From: Chryseobacterium aureum
GTDB lineage: Bacteria; Bacteroidota; Bacteroidia; Flavobacteriales; Weeksellaceae
Assembly (NCBI RefSeq): GCF_003971235.1
Contig: NZ_CP034661.1
Coordinates: forward strand, 1,240,001-1,304,000
Reading direction: 5' to 3'
DNA: 64,000 nucleotides
Part shown: positions 6,482-18,870 of the stretch, piece by piece
How the letters are laid out: each line of letters begins with the position of its first letter
Position numbering within the stretch: the first letter of the stretch is position 1
Notes under the pieces: generated by a model
The model's database searches: none
Seen by the model: the letters and a program-made list of their open reading frames with translations, nothing else
What the model was told of the DNA's origin: nothing
Position numbers and translations under genes: made by a program

Positions 6482-7312
6482 TTACATGGACATTTTCGCC
6501 ACTATAGAGATTCCTACTGTTTCCCTGTAATTTCTGGGTGAACAGCCTACCGATTTTTTGAAATACCTGCTGAAGTAAAATTCATCTGCAAATCCGAACT
6601 CTGAAGCAATTTCCTTTACCGATCTGTAGGTTAAATGCAGCAGTTTCTTGGATTCCAGAATAATTCTTTCATTGATAAGCTGGGTAGGTGTTTTGGAAAA
6701 CTCTTTCTTTACGGCTTTGCTTAAAGTATTATTGGTAATATTCAGCTTGTCACTATAAAATGAAAGTTCTTTTTCCTTTTTAAAATGTATTTCCAGCAGT
6801 TTCTGAAATTCGGCTGCGTATTTATTGGAAAGCTTTTCGCCGGAAACCAAAGTGTTTTCCATACTGCTTTTCTGCTTGCTTCCAATGGCAAGAATAAGCT
6901 GAATATACGTTTTGATAATAGATTCCGAAAACGGGTGTTTCTCAGATTCTTCTTTCTGAATATGATTAAAGAGCTCCAATATATAGTTGTAGTTCTCTTC
7001 CGAAAGCTCAACGCCCGGATTCAGGTAAATATTATTGAAAAGAAGTCCGTTGCAAGCAACTTCTTCTTTGTGATATTCTATACAGTAATAATCTCCATGA
7101 AAGAAAAGTACATCGATATTTTCATCAGATTCGGAAGCCAGCTTTAACTTCTGATAGGGGGAAAGAAACAGAATATTGTATCCGCTGTAAGCATAGTTGA
7201 TGTCATCTACAGAGAAAATACCGGACCCTTTCCAAAGAATTACACTGTAGTTTTCTGTAGTGAGCTCTACAGGAAAATCTAAGGTAGAGTAAGTCTGGAT
7301 TTTTATTTTCAT
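6482..7312 (-). CDS. AraC-family transcriptional regulator
   Basis: This is a 276-residue cytoplasmic DNA-binding regulator. The N-terminal half (about 1-150) looks like a cupin-type sensing domain. The C-terminal hundred residues carry the two helix-turn-helix motifs of the AraC/XylS family, with the conserved I-A-S-E-F-G-F-A-D-E-F-Y-F-S-R-Y-F-K-K stretch followed by G-C-S-P-R-N-Y-R. The ligand is unknown. It is immediately upstream of the DUF417 membrane gene in the same direction, which recalls the rclR/rclC arrangement, although that similarity is contextual. A structured repeat element lies between its start and the dnaN terminator. Confidence 0.9.
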   Translation of the reverse strand: MKIKIQTYSTLDFPVELTTENYSVILWKGSGIFSVDDINYAYSGYNILFLSPYQKLKLASESDENIDVLFFHGDYYCIEYHKEEVACNGLLFNNIYLNPGVELSEENYNYILELFNHIQKEESEKHPFSESIIKTYIQLILAIGSKQKSSMENTLVSGEKLSNKYAAEFQKLLEIHFKKEKELSFYSDKLNITNNTLSKAVKKEFSKTPTQLINERIILESKKLLHLTYRSVKEIASEFGFADEFYFSRYFKKSVGCSPRNYRETVGISIVAKMSM

Positions 7313-7384
7313 GATTAAATATTTTTAAACACAAATTGCTCTAATGATTCACAAATAACACAATATTTTTTTTCTTATGATATT

Positions 7385-7583
7385 TTTACCTTGAAGCAAA
7401 ATTATACAAAAGTTCAAGACGGGAATCATCCGCTAAAAATTCTAATGTACTCCTAAAATTTCCAAACTCGCATGGATTACCTGATCCTGCTTCGGTTCTA
7501 AATTTCGTCCATGCTCAAACAATGGAAATTTTTTGACGGATTACATTAAAATTTTCTCAACGCTGCTGATTCCTAAGTCGATT
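7385..7583 (+). repeat. ~199-bp structured repeat element, copy 1
   Basis: This non-coding element matches 18345-18542 over its whole length in the same orientation, nearly gap-free and about 85-90 percent identical by eye. Its inner part is a nested inverted repeat. GGAATCA (7422-7428) pairs with TGATTCC (7567-7573). The 14-base arm at 7436-7449 pairs with 7542-7555. AAAATTTCCA (7455-7464) pairs with TGGAAATTTT (7523-7532). GCATGGA (7470-7476) pairs with TCCATGC (7508-7514). About 35 unpaired but conserved bases precede the hairpin. No reading frame is conserved between the copies. It lies between the dnaN terminator and the AraC gene promoter region. Confidence 0.85.
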
Positions 7584-7621
7584 CAGATATTTACAACTGT
7601 GAGTCGAATGGTAGAATTACA

Positions 7622-7648
7622 AAAAAGCCGGAAAATTCCGGCTTTTTA
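7622..7648 (-). terminator. dnaN terminator
   Basis: AAAAAGCCGGAA and TTCCGGCTTTTT form a strong stem-loop with flanking A and T runs, 21 bases beyond the dnaN stop. Confidence 0.88.
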
Positions 7649-7668
7649 TATTTGTAATATTTTAAATA

Positions 7669-8799
7669 TTATAATCCGATAACCGGCATTGATAACATTA
7701 AGATATTTTCGTTTTCTTCAAGACCGTCAAGAGGTTCGATGATCCCCGGTCTGTTGGGTTGAGACATTTTCATAGTAATATCATCAGATCCTAAAATCGT
7801 CAGCATTTCCGTTAAGAATTTTGAGCTGAATCCGATATTGATATCTTCTCCGTTGTAGTCACAAGGAATCTGCATGTCTGCTTTGTTTGCATATTCAGTA
7901 TCTTCTGCATGAAGATGAAGAATATTTCCGGAAAGCTTGAATCTTACCTGATTGGTAGATTTGTTAGACATGATCGATGCTCTTTTGATCGCTCCCAGCA
8001 ACAGGTTTCTGTTGATGGTCAATACATTTGGATTCTCTTTTGGGATTACCGCTGTATAGTTCGGATATTTTCCGTCGATCAGTCTACAGATCCAGATATG
8101 CTTACCAAAAGTAAATTTAGCCATATTCTCATTGAAGTCGATGGTAACGTCTTCATTGGAACTTGCCAGGATATTTTTGAAAATGTTCAGGGGCTTTTTA
8201 GGCATGATAAACTCCATTGGTTCGGCATTCATAAGATCAGCTCTTTTGTACACTACCAGTCTATGGGAGTCAGTAGAAACGAAATTGGTTTCATTTTCTC
8301 CAAACTGAAAAAGAACGCCTGTCATTACCGGACGAAGTGAATCGTTACTTGTAGCAAACAGGGTGTTTGTCAAAGCTTCAGACAAAACTCCTGCCGGCAT
8401 CGTTACACTTTGTGAAGCGTCGAATTCCGGTAATTCGGGATAGTCATCAGCATTATCTAATGCTACTGCGAAATTATCTTTTTCATCTAAAATCTCAAGC
8501 TGGCTTCCGGTACCTTCAGCATTGTCTTTTACAACAAATGTCAGAGGCTGTTCACCATAGGTCTTGATAAAATCCTGAAAAATTTTAGCAGGAACAGCAA
8601 ATTTACCTGTATCATCAGACTTTACTTCCAGGGAAGTAACAAGAGTTGTCTCGCCGTCAGATGCTGTAATGGTAACATTATTTCCGTCTAATTCAAAAAG
8701 ATAGTTTTCTAAAATCGGTCTCGATTGAGAGCTTGATATTACGCCACTTACAGTTTGCAAAGCCTTCTGCAGTTCACCACTTGAAATAATAAATTTCAT
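7669..8799 (-). CDS. dnaN: DNA polymerase III subunit beta (sliding clamp)
   Basis: This is the ring-shaped processivity factor that tethers DNA polymerase III to DNA. Its 376 residues match the family length, with three repeated clamp domains of about 125 residues. The N-terminal M-K-F-I-I-S-S-G-E-L-Q-K-A-L motif, the D-G-E-T-T-L segment, the central R-P-V-M-T-G-V-L-F and S-H-R-L-V-V-Y motifs and the C-terminal M-S-M-P-V-I-G-L (bacterial M-P-x-R/I-L type end) are all present. It is transcribed alone, divergent from dgkA, with a -7 box at 8822-8829 and its own terminator. dnaA is not adjacent, which is usual in this group. Confidence 0.97.
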   Translation of the reverse strand: MKFIISSGELQKALQTVSGVISSSQSRPILENYLFELDGNNVTITASDGETTLVTSLEVKSDDTGKFAVPAKIFQDFIKTYGEQPLTFVVKDNAEGTGSQLEILDEKDNFAVALDNADDYPELPEFDASQSVTMPAGVLSEALTNTLFATSNDSLRPVMTGVLFQFGENETNFVSTDSHRLVVYKRADLMNAEPMEFIMPKKPLNIFKNILASSNEDVTIDFNENMAKFTFGKHIWICRLIDGKYPNYTAVIPKENPNVLTINRNLLLGAIKRASIMSNKSTNQVRFKLSGNILHLHAEDTEYANKADMQIPCDYNGEDINIGFSSKFLTEMLTILGSDDITMKMSQPNRPGIIEPLDGLEENENILMLSMPVIGL

Positions 8800-16802: not shown

Positions 16803-18230
16803 TTATACTTTAAGATCAGCTTCCAATCCTATTAAGTCTTTGTTTTGGTCTATAATCGGCTGTACTTCATTTTTGATGAATTCCTCCGTCTGGATCGGCG
16901 CGAAACCAATAAAGTTTTTAGGATCTAACACTTCTTTCAGTTTTGATTTGTCTAATTTTAAAGAATCATCGTTTAAGATTCTTTCGATAAGATCGTTTTC
17001 TTTTCCTTCTTCTTTCACTTTCTTGGAAGCTTCCATAGAATGAACTCTGATTACTTCGTGAATTTCCTGGCGGTCACCACCAGCTTTCACTTCTTCCATG
17101 ATGATATATTCAGTCGCCATGAAAGGAAGCTCTTCCATAATGTGCTTGTTGATTCTGTTTGGATAAACAACGATACCGTTCATGATGTTGTTCCAGATCA
17201 ATAGAATGGCATCCACAGCTAAAAATGCCTGAGGAATGGTTAATCTTTTGTTCGCAGAGTCATCCAACGTTCTTTCAAACCATTGTGTAGAAGCTACCAT
17301 TGCAGAACTTGTTGTAAGAGACATTACATATTTTGCCAATGCTCCGATTCTTTCACTTCTCATCGGGTTACGTTTATAGGCCATTGCCGATGAACCGATC
17401 TGGTTTTTCTCGAATGGCTCTTCAATTTCCTTAAGGTTTTGAAGTAAACGTAAATCGTTTGTGAATTTGTGTGCAGATTGTGCAATATTTCCTAATAAAG
17501 CCACAACTTTTGCATCAATTTTTCTATCGTAAGTTTGTCCGGAAACTCCGAACACTTTTTCGAAACCGAATCTTTTTGAAAGTTCCTTATCTAAGTGTTT
17601 TACTTTAGAATAATCACCGTTGAAAAGCTCAAGGAAGCTGGCAGCAGTTCCTGTAGTTCCTTTTACTCCTCTGAAACGAAGGGTTTCAAGGAAGAAATCC
17701 AATTCTTCGATGTCAAGAACCAGACTCTGTAACCAAAGTGTTGCTCTTTTTCCTACGGTTGTCAACTGAGCCGGCTGGAAGTGGGTGAAACCTAAAGTAG
17801 GAAGGTCTTTATACTGAATGGCAAAATCCGAAAGATTTTTCATCACGTTTACCAACTTTTTCTTTAAGATTAAAAGTCCGTCACGGATTTGAATTAAATC
17901 GGTATTGTCTCCTACAAAAGCTGAAGTTGCTCCCAAGTGGATAATTCCTTTTGCCGAAGGCGCCACATCACCATATGCGTGAACGTGAGCCATTACGTCA
18001 TGACGGAATTTTTTCTCGTACTCTGCTGCTTTTACATAATCAATATTTTCAGCATTTGCTTTCAATTCTGCAATCTGCTCGTCTGTAATATCAAGACCAA
18101 GATCTTTTTCAATTTCAGCAAGAGCTATCCAAAGCTTTCTCCAATTCTGGAATTTGTTATTGTGTGAGAAGTTAAATAACATTTCTTCACTGGAGTAGCG
18201 TTCTTCCAATGGATTTTTGTAGGAATTCAT
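16803..18230 (-). CDS. purB: Adenylosuccinate lyase
   Basis: This cytoplasmic homotetrameric enzyme cleaves adenylosuccinate and SAICAR to release fumarate in purine synthesis. The 475-residue protein shows the fumarase/aspartase superfamily layout. H-L-G-A-T-S lies near residue 97, the T-H-F-Q-P-A-Q motif near 160, and the signature G-S-S-A-M-A-Y-K-R-N-P-M-R-S-E near 285, which carries the catalytic serine loop. The C-terminal helical domain is complete. A -7 box lies 25 bases upstream. Together with purL it gives two non-consecutive purine steps in this area. Confidence 0.97.
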   Translation of the reverse strand: MNSYKNPLEERYSSEEMLFNFSHNNKFQNWRKLWIALAEIEKDLGLDITDEQIAELKANAENIDYVKAAEYEKKFRHDVMAHVHAYGDVAPSAKGIIHLGATSAFVGDNTDLIQIRDGLLILKKKLVNVMKNLSDFAIQYKDLPTLGFTHFQPAQLTTVGKRATLWLQSLVLDIEELDFFLETLRFRGVKGTTGTAASFLELFNGDYSKVKHLDKELSKRFGFEKVFGVSGQTYDRKIDAKVVALLGNIAQSAHKFTNDLRLLQNLKEIEEPFEKNQIGSSAMAYKRNPMRSERIGALAKYVMSLTTSSAMVASTQWFERTLDDSANKRLTIPQAFLAVDAILLIWNNIMNGIVVYPNRINKHIMEELPFMATEYIIMEEVKAGGDRQEIHEVIRVHSMEASKKVKEEGKENDLIERILNDDSLKLDKSKLKEVLDPKNFIGFAPIQTEEFIKNEVQPIIDQNKDLIGLEADLKV

Positions 18231-18262: not shown

Positions 18263-18344
18263 CGGATTTTCAGTGAGAGATGAAAATCCTGTTCTGATGA
18301 TTTTTCAACTATATTTTGATGATTTTATAGTTTCATTTATACTT

Positions 18345-18542
18345 TTACCTTGAAGCAAAAGTATACAAAAGTTCAAGACGGGAATCATCCGCTAAAAATT
18401 TGATTGTACTCCTAAAATTTCCAAACCCGCATGGATCATCCGGTTCTGCTTCGGTTCTGAACAAGTCCCGTGCTCAGACAGTGGAAATTTTTTAACGGAC
18501 TACATTCTAATTTTCTTAACGCTACTGATTCCTAAGTCGATT
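18345..18542 (+). repeat. ~199-bp structured repeat element, copy 2
   Basis: This is the second copy of the element at 7385-7583, in the same orientation. The nested arms are kept: GGAATCA/TGATTCC, 18395-18408 with 18501-18514, AAAATTTCCA/TGGAAATTTT, and GCATGG (18429-18434) with CCGTGC (pairing through one G-U). It lies between purB and the terminator of the small GG-leader peptide gene. Confidence 0.85.
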
Positions 18543-18550
18543 GATGTAAC

Positions 18551-18607: not shown

Positions 18608-18748
18608 TTAATCAATAAGCCCGCATGGTGATCCTACGGGGATACATTTTTTTTCAAATGTACACCAGAAGTATCCTGCAAGACACATTGGGATCCCACC
18701 CTGAACGGTTTTCAATTCTCTTTTTGAAAGTTTTCTTAGGTTTTTCAT
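18608..18748 (-). CDS. Double-glycine-leader bacteriocin-like peptide
   Basis: This is a 46-residue peptide. The leader MKNLRKLSKRELKTVQGG (residues 1-18) has the basic, leucine-spaced pattern and terminal Gly-Gly of precursors cleaved by C39-peptidase transporters. The 28-residue core contains four cysteines at positions 22, 29, 35 and 42, spaced 7, 6 and 7, which could form two disulfides, and also Trp28 and several glycines. It has its own putative promoter and a strong terminator, so it is a stand-alone transcription unit. No processing transporter or immunity gene is nearby. Chryseobacterium genomes carry orphan genes of this kind, annotated as bacteriocin-like; antimicrobial activity is not established. 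Confidence 0.82.
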   Translation of the reverse strand: MKNLRKLSKRELKTVQGGIPMCLAGYFWCTFEKKCIPVGSPCGLID

Positions 18749-18870
18749 AGTTCTATTTTTTTGATTTTTCTCCTACTCTATATGCTTTTCGGATTACGCT
18801 TTAATTTGGTAATACCAATATACATTTTTTGGAGACAAAAAAACATAACCCGTTCATTTTATACAATTTA

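Follow-up and report, generated by a model that had tools for sequence, protein, structure and literature searches.

ERIC-type repeats are imperfect palindromes of 100-200 bp found in transcribed intergenic regions, and to our knowledge neither a pseudoknot nor a strict sense orientation has been reported for them. The attC sites of integrons are structured sites located just behind a gene in a fixed orientation, with conserved ends and a variable interior. REP sequences are described, in the parts of the literature drawn on here, as multi-copy extragenic palindromic repeats with hypothesised roles in mRNA stabilisation and termination (PMC3733652, PMC2817692) and a length of 20-40 bp (PMC3733652). 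Among the structured RNA candidates of Bacteroidetes, Flavo-1, Bacteroidales-1 and others are given in the portion of Weinberg 2010 used here (PMC2864571).

The element described here is about 205 nt long and was found in two copies in a 64,000-nucleotide stretch of the Chryseobacterium aureum genome (hereafter the window). Unlike the candidates of Weinberg 2010, it belongs to no Rfam family at gathering score where scanned. It resembles the RAYT-associated REP/BIME sequences in being a multi-copy extragenic palindromic repeat, but differs from a REP palindrome in its much greater length, its pseudoknot, its nested helices that covary and its preference for the sense orientation. With ERIC it shares the imperfect palindrome in transcribed intergenic regions, although ERIC belongs to another phylum and the two are likened by description and not by sequence. 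The likeness to attC is one of context and covers the features given above, whereas the element lies behind resident genes (dnaN, arg operons) instead of in cassette arrays and shows an RNA-like mismatch bias in its well-paired copies. The kind of sequence, an intergenic structured repeat, is thus known. We know of no earlier description of a phylum-wide, pseudoknot-ended and mostly sense-oriented one, and a search of openly licensed papers that included the motif stretches gave no description of the element, which is not proof of absence. The explanation that we put first, and to which we give about an even chance, is a structured 3'UTR or intercistronic RNA module that acts in cis on the mRNA and spreads as a non-autonomous repeat.

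Structure of the two window copies

The earlier note had reported two same-orientation copies at 7385-7583 and 18345-18542, and these were 87% identical (E 1.4e-64) and each located between called genes, in agreement with the non-coding placement that had been claimed. The ends at 7583 and 18542 were retained, while the starts were moved slightly outwards, to about 7380 and 18339. The proposed nested hairpin was also borne out, as both copies folded on the given (+) strand better than nearly all of 200 shuffled sequences (copy 1: z -4.15, 0/200 shuffles as good; copy 2: z -2.37, 2/200).

Read on the + strand, the element begins with a 9-10 bp hairpin (S1) with the loop CTTGAA, which can form a pseudoknot with TTCAAG 16-17 nt farther along. 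The GAC that ends the TTCAAG stretch opens the closing helix P2, and a GTC at the far end closes it. Within P2 the helices P3 (17 pairs), P4 (9) and P5 (6) are nested, with asymmetric loops between them, two of which have the same motif (CUAAAA / UUUUNUUAACG on the + strand), and with a variable apical loop. The coordinates are given in Table 1. In S1 of copy 1, A7388/C7397 corresponds to a G-U pair on the complement, and T7383/T7402 is mismatched. The first 35 bases had been taken as an unpaired lead-in. This proved wrong: they are paired (hairpin and pseudoknot) and are the most conserved part of the element, and the hairpin loop both pairs and covaries with the downstream sequence.

Table 1. 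Features of the element and its neighbours, in window coordinates; for the element and its parts the strand is that of the probable RNA.
Feature	Position	Strand	Basis and remarks
Copy 1	7380..7583	- (probable RNA strand, 5' end near 7583, 3' end near 7380)	CM match 7377-7584, E 1.3e-44; covariation; mismatch types; gene orientation
Terminal hairpin S1, copy 1	7380..7405	-	Arms 7380-7389/7396-7405, loop 7390-7395; sequence, alignment A2 columns 5-14/22-33
Pseudoknot, copy 1	7390..7418	-	Loop CTTGAA 7390-7395 with TTCAAG 7413-7418; covariation
Closing helix P2, copy 1	7418..7579	-	7418-7427 with 7568-7579, GAC...GTC at base
Nested hairpin P3-P5, copy 1	7432..7563	-	Alignments A2, A3
AraC-type regulator gene	6482..7312	-	Downstream of copy 1; AraC-family matches, none over curated cut-off
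Terminator-like hairpin	7622..7647	.	Between dnaN and copy 1; listed on + strand
dnaN	7669..8799	-	Upstream of copy 1 in the probable RNA sense; TIGR00663 over cut-off
Copy 2	18339..18542	- (probable RNA strand)	CM match 18336-18543, E 1.2e-45
Terminal hairpin S1, copy 2	18339..18364	-	Loop CTTGAA 18349-18354, pseudoknot partner TTCAAG 18372-18377; sequence
purB	16803..18230	-	Downstream of copy 2; TIGR00928 over cut-off
Terminator-like hairpin	18264..18289	-	Between copy 2 and purB, after the element; 1 found vs 0.5 ± 0.8 in shuffles, weak
46-aa bacteriocin-like double-glycine peptide gene	18608..18748	-	Upstream of copy 2; NF047798 leader_Chryseo over cut-off

Two paired differences between the copies had been noted. 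The exchange of T7443/A7548 (copy 1) for G18402/C18507 (copy 2) was found in the sequence as described. That of T7473/A7511 for T18432/G18470 was present as well, but on the strand that we regard as the RNA the supposed change from U-A to U-G becomes an A-C mismatch.

Copies in the genome, genus, order and phylum

As the earlier note had suggested, copies were collected and a covariance model was built from 42 copies (alignment A2); the model recovered the family and was used for the genome, genus and order searches. The 5.07-Mb genome of C. aureum contained 14 strong copies, all at E 6.6e-28 or better, besides a fragment at 4e-5. The 14 are the two window copies, one array of seven (period 285-286), one array of three (period 361) and two singles. 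In the genus, 90/98 genomes had a match with E of 0.001 or below. The matches per genome ranged from 0 to 24, and these numbers are lower bounds, as no more than 24 candidates were scored in any one genome (no more than 8 in the order search). The absence of a match from the remaining 8 genomes indicated that the element is not essential. At E 0.01, 85/296 genomes and 36/90 genera of the order were matched, more weakly outside the family.

In the phylum, a 37-nt end motif with at most 3 mismatches was found in 23/395 genomes and 15/170 genera, and the same pattern reversed gave 0 in every phylum entry listed. The exact end motif occurred in at least 120 stretches of named genomes. Among the 80 stretches listed by name most were from Chryseobacterium, and the others included Mucilaginibacter, Segetibacter, Capnocytophaga, Riemerella, Winogradskyella, Flavivirga, Aurantibacter and one assembly labelled Neomarinimicrobiota, a single metagenome assembly that may be misbinned. 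The similar sequences that the earlier note placed in other Flavobacteriia are thus borne out, and the element also occurs in further families and classes of the phylum and in this one assembly.

Rfam gave nothing at gathering score on the element in the window, in four further stretches of the same genome or in 20 loci from the phylum search; the matches in those scans were to DUF805b, Flavo-1 and tRNA, all off the element. When matches with E up to 10 were allowed around copy 1, 20 were found, none of which reached gathering; the strongest (E 0.0062) was on a hairpin at 7624-7675. The DUF805b RNA (RF02914, 36.9 bits, above gathering) is at 18770-18802 (-) of the window, directly upstream of the peptide gene 18608-18748. 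The Flavo-1 RNA (RF01705; L033, 1666-1752, -) lies in the same 5-kb stretch as another element copy, and the tRNA match (RF00005; L033, 2802-2940, +) in that stretch was not reported by ARAGORN.

Turnover of copies and exchange of inner hairpins

Occupancy was read at the dnaN site in 30 of 98 genomes and at the argD site in 30 of the 88 genomes with argD. By reading, the element behind dnaN was intact in 5 loci (L141, L142, L143, L147, L149) and decayed in one (L148); short remnants with the ends kept were present in at least 3 (L144, L145, L151), doubtful traces in L146 and L150, and nothing in the rest. The argC-argD spacer had an intact element in 13 of its 30 loci, a remnant in 1 and other sequence in 16, and presence alternated among close relatives. 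Across species this spacer (L351-L380) consisted of at least three unlike sequences, and the element-free ones reach the argD start codon, as if intercistronic spacers were exchangeable. The alternative 112-nt argC-argD spacer of C. aureum itself was not a high-copy repeat and gave one further partial match.

The interior of the element also turns over. At the fucosidase site, L198 and L205, from two species, had 30/30 nt downstream in common and a downstream gene with 90% identity, but their inner hairpins were only 68% identical; by this comparison the interior was either exchanged or changed very fast while the frame around it was kept. At argC-argD, the inner hairpins of six of eight loci were 0.80-0.93 alike and the flanking coding sequences 0.65-0.89, the downstream gene being more alike than the inner hairpin in three of those fifteen pairs. 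For the other two of the eight loci, inner hairpin likeness was 0.72-0.76 and 0.40-0.50. Given the presence differences among relatives and the exchange of inner hairpins, gain at new sites is likely, although gain and loss were not told apart. The repetitive or mobile nature that had been proposed is supported by multiplicity, by the differences in occupancy and by the arrays.

Such turnover would also be expected of a MITE- or REP-like DNA transposon that is not autonomous: an enzyme encoded elsewhere would recognise its hairpins in single-stranded or cruciform form. Pairing would then be kept for the enzyme, and a preference for targets at gene 3' ends would account for the orientation. The 0 to 24 matches per genus genome (lower bounds), the sites that are occupied in one close relative and not in another, the arrays in C. 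aureum, the end motif kept across the phylum and the near equality of A-C and G-T mismatches when all copies are counted (70:49, see below) agree with this explanation. Against it, inspection showed no inverted repeat between the S1 hairpin and the GTC end, and no clean insertion with a target duplication was seen, the possible empty site at dnaN (L152) being without a clear duplication. Furthermore, no blastn match at E 0.001 was obtained among 72,556 plasmid and 50,697 phage records, the exact motif was not found in viral contigs, and the well-paired copies show an RNA-like bias towards one strand. We consider a DNA transposon rather unlikely, and retain it since copies clearly turn over and the strand signal hinges on restricting the count to those that are well paired.

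Covariation and structural conservation

In the alignment of 42 copies, 93.7% of the cells could pair (shuffles 82.7 ± 0.4), 29 of 56 pairs showed changes on both sides (19.3 ± 1.4) and 251 cells were doubly changed (89.0 ± 7.5). None of the five covariation measures was reached by any of 500 shuffles, and when the partners were slid by 1-3 columns the paired cells fell to 30-55%. Given that the shuffles ignore relatedness and that cells are not independent events, this excess is not to be read as a probability. The covariation anticipated from two copies was thus found in 42, above both the shuffled and the slid controls.

Pairing was also retained outside the genus. Among 22 loci from the phylum search (3 mismatches allowed), the pseudoknot read CTTGAA/TTCAAG in 9, CTTGAT/ATCAAG in 8 (6 genomes) and CTTGAC/GTCAAG in 1, and was uncompensated in 4; the other 21 of the 43 loci that lie outside the genus or lack a Chryseobacterium label were exact-motif loci and uninformative on these letters. 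A C-G pair replaced a G-C pair of S1 in 4 of the 22, and the closing triplet, read by eye, pairs as GAC/GTC, GGC/GCC, GCC/GGC or GTC/GAC in other genera. Within the genus, a compensated T-A pseudoknot pair was present in 3 of 42 copies. In other genera the ends are kept and the inner hairpin differs in length and sequence. Judged from these patterns, the evidence is strong that selection acts on the shape of the element, as the earlier note had supposed.

Pairing could alternatively be kept without selection if the element were a passive palindromic repeat corrected by template switching or gene conversion in quasi-palindromes, with its orientation produced by purging of transcription-disturbing copies. 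Frequent A-T to T-A swaps in the pairs of the element and the exchange of whole inner hairpins fit template-driven correction of this kind. The pairing between the S1 loop and the downstream sequence is not one hairpin's stem, but it too covaries (three letter pairs), and mismatches in well-paired copies are strand biased. The inner hairpin at argC-argD is moreover often more alike than the flanking coding DNA, although conversion could also do so. On balance a passive repeat appears unlikely, more so than a DNA transposon.

Two further sequences were observed at the S1 end. About 22 nt of similar sequence (TCGAAGATTCGAC-like, partly palindromic) are inserted in the S1 loop of L034, L057, L059, L086, L092, L098, L132 and L135, across different subfamilies, as if a second small repeat used the loop or the loop had an alternative form. 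In L171, L187, L211, L213, L239, L336 and L337 (Mucilaginibacter and others), a further similar motif, about GCTCATTGCCGCGG..GGCTACTT, precedes the S1 end on the + strand.

Position and orientation relative to genes

Strand and context were non-random, as the complement strand tends to follow a gene in the direction of that gene. The preceding gene was co-directional with the complement in 68 of the 78 loci for which a neighbour on that side was called (a first set in which some array or site loci were counted repeatedly) and in 91 of 105 loci of the named set, from which filters had removed 12 of 120 loci to leave 108. When loci with related flanking genes were merged, omitting 8 more without a called gene on one side, 46 of 58 contexts were co-directional and tandem contexts were 31 sense vs 7 antisense (p 1.2e-4). 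Gene calls for these and the following counts were simple longest-frame calls. For loci from outside the genus or without a Chryseobacterium label the values were 30/41 and, in tandem, 18:5; this 43-locus set takes 21 loci from the named set and includes a few Flavobacteriaceae assemblies and some genomes with two or three loci.

In 17 of the 31 tandem sense contexts the element starts at most 60 nt past the stop codon, and in 17 the next gene starts at most 100 nt away; for four of these the distance from the element to that start is 19-28 nt. Copies were found inside argC-argD, inside argE-argH (the first gene presumably argE) and inside a gene pair that we take to be fucosidase-like and glucosidase-like, with the next start 20-30 nt on; argC and argH scored over their NCBIfam cut-offs and argD below its own. 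Copy pairs about 4.6 kb apart had raised the suspicion of flanked rRNA operons, which was rejected as the copies sit at argC-argD and argE-argH.

Both window copies are in sense behind their preceding gene (dnaN and the 46-aa peptide gene). The hairpin at 7622..7647, which in our reading also fits a dnaN terminator on the - strand, is also present behind dnaN in other species, whether or not they have the element, and a palindrome that the terminator scan did not list was seen by eye between the peptide gene and copy 2. With such a structure between the preceding gene and each copy, both window copies may be little transcribed. Insertion behind terminators as a rule was rejected: in a simple scan a terminator preceded the element in 12 of 108 loci, and the reverse strand gave the same number, so the dnaN picture does not generalise.

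A sense bias and a conserved end could also arise if the element spread in a SINE-like way, through RNA, by a reverse transcriptase of the host or of a mobile element that recognises the 3' pseudoknot. It would then be a phylum-wide module, an exchangeable intercistronic part of mRNAs whose interior evolves under pairing alone. This we hold to be improbable.

Which strand is the RNA

Paired RNA tolerates G-U and does not tolerate A-C, and on the opposite strand the two swap roles; under strand-symmetric mutation without selection both are expected to be equal. Mismatches were counted in 139 copies, after 8 gap-rich copies of 147 and pairs with less than 75% Watson-Crick cells had been dropped. 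Over all 139 copies there were 70 A-C vs 49 G-T events on the + strand (p 0.066). The 77 copies with at most two mismatches had 23 A-C vs 5 G-T (p 0.001), and changes common to at least three copies were 12 vs 2 (p 0.013); the cut-offs for these counts were picked after seeing the data and several were tried. In the 77 well-paired copies the ratio of A-C to G-T was 10:1 from A-T pairs and 13:4 from G-C pairs, and because the excess comes from both kinds of ancestor, cytosine deamination alone is no explanation. By helix, in all copies, the A-C:G-T counts were 13:6 in S1, 11:3 in the pseudoknot, 24:10 in P3 and 6:3 in P4, with the opposite lean in P2 (6:13) and P5 (10:14). A control count on RNase P RNA from 30 genomes of the genus gave 13 G-U vs 1 A-C, a contrast that is somewhat overstated since RNAalifold, the source of the predicted helices, is biased towards G-U columns.

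We read this as a strand signal blurred by decaying copies. From the mismatch types in well-paired copies we infer, in line with gene orientation, that the RNA is probably the complement of the strand first described, and that the earlier assignment to the + strand is probably wrong. Folding energy was rejected as a test of strand, as the complement was more stable by 6.8 kcal/mol (mean of 74 copies) and shuffled sequences gave 6.6, so that it does not discriminate.

An antisense or trans-acting small RNA on the + strand with its own promoter would have a comfortable pseudoknot geometry with an A-rich third loop (an estimate), one subfamily with TACTTTTG, which fits what we take to be the flavobacterial -7 box consensus, and the lean of the P2 and P5 mismatches, but it appears very improbable, slightly more so than SINE-like spread, as G-T changes are rarer in total than A-C on the + strand, opposite to RNase P RNA, and as in 46 of 58 contexts its direction would be opposite to that of the preceding gene.

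Proposed function and spread

In the cis-acting module that we favour, the complement strand would give an RNA of about 205 nt in the same direction as the preceding gene, transcribed within the 3' UTR of that gene or in the operon spacer between two genes. Its 3' end would be the almost invariant hairpin, the loop of which would pair with sequence just 5' of it, either as a pseudoknot or as two alternating helices. Because no loop nucleotides are spare, there seems to be little steric room on the complement for all 6 pairs of the pseudoknot, which may there be partial or alternate with the hairpin. The closing helix would lead to the long nested hairpin, in which the sequence would drift while pairing is kept.

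A covarying element in sense within transcribed spacers makes action in cis on the mRNA the simplest assumption, and its placement inside operons makes a strong terminator unlikely. By its structure, the element would most likely be a processing or stability boundary of the transcript: the A/U-rich helix of about 17 pairs together with the 9-pair helix would be a plausible site for a double-strand nuclease, and the 3'-terminal pseudoknot might resist 3' exonucleases and so protect an end. Multiplication would proceed by local tandem duplication, by exchange between copies and by gain at new sites behind genes. Of the possibilities originally offered (a small RNA, a 3' or intergenic RNA regulator, or a mobile hairpin), the RNA and the repetitive or mobile nature are kept, and the strand is probably the other one.

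A conserved, multi-copy, RNA-like structure lies behind genes in many Bacteroidota, including those of arginine biosynthesis operons; should it affect the ends of mRNAs, it would be a cis-acting component found widely in these genomes. With a conserved end and an interior that evolves freely, it is also well suited to asking how a repeat retains its shape and how it comes to be oriented one way relative to transcription.

Other repeats were also seen close to the element. In L211 a different palindromic repeat ('cattctgagc...agattcttcgc...gctcagaatg') occurs within a few hundred bases of it, and stretches resembling that repeat are found at similar distances in L325 and L332.
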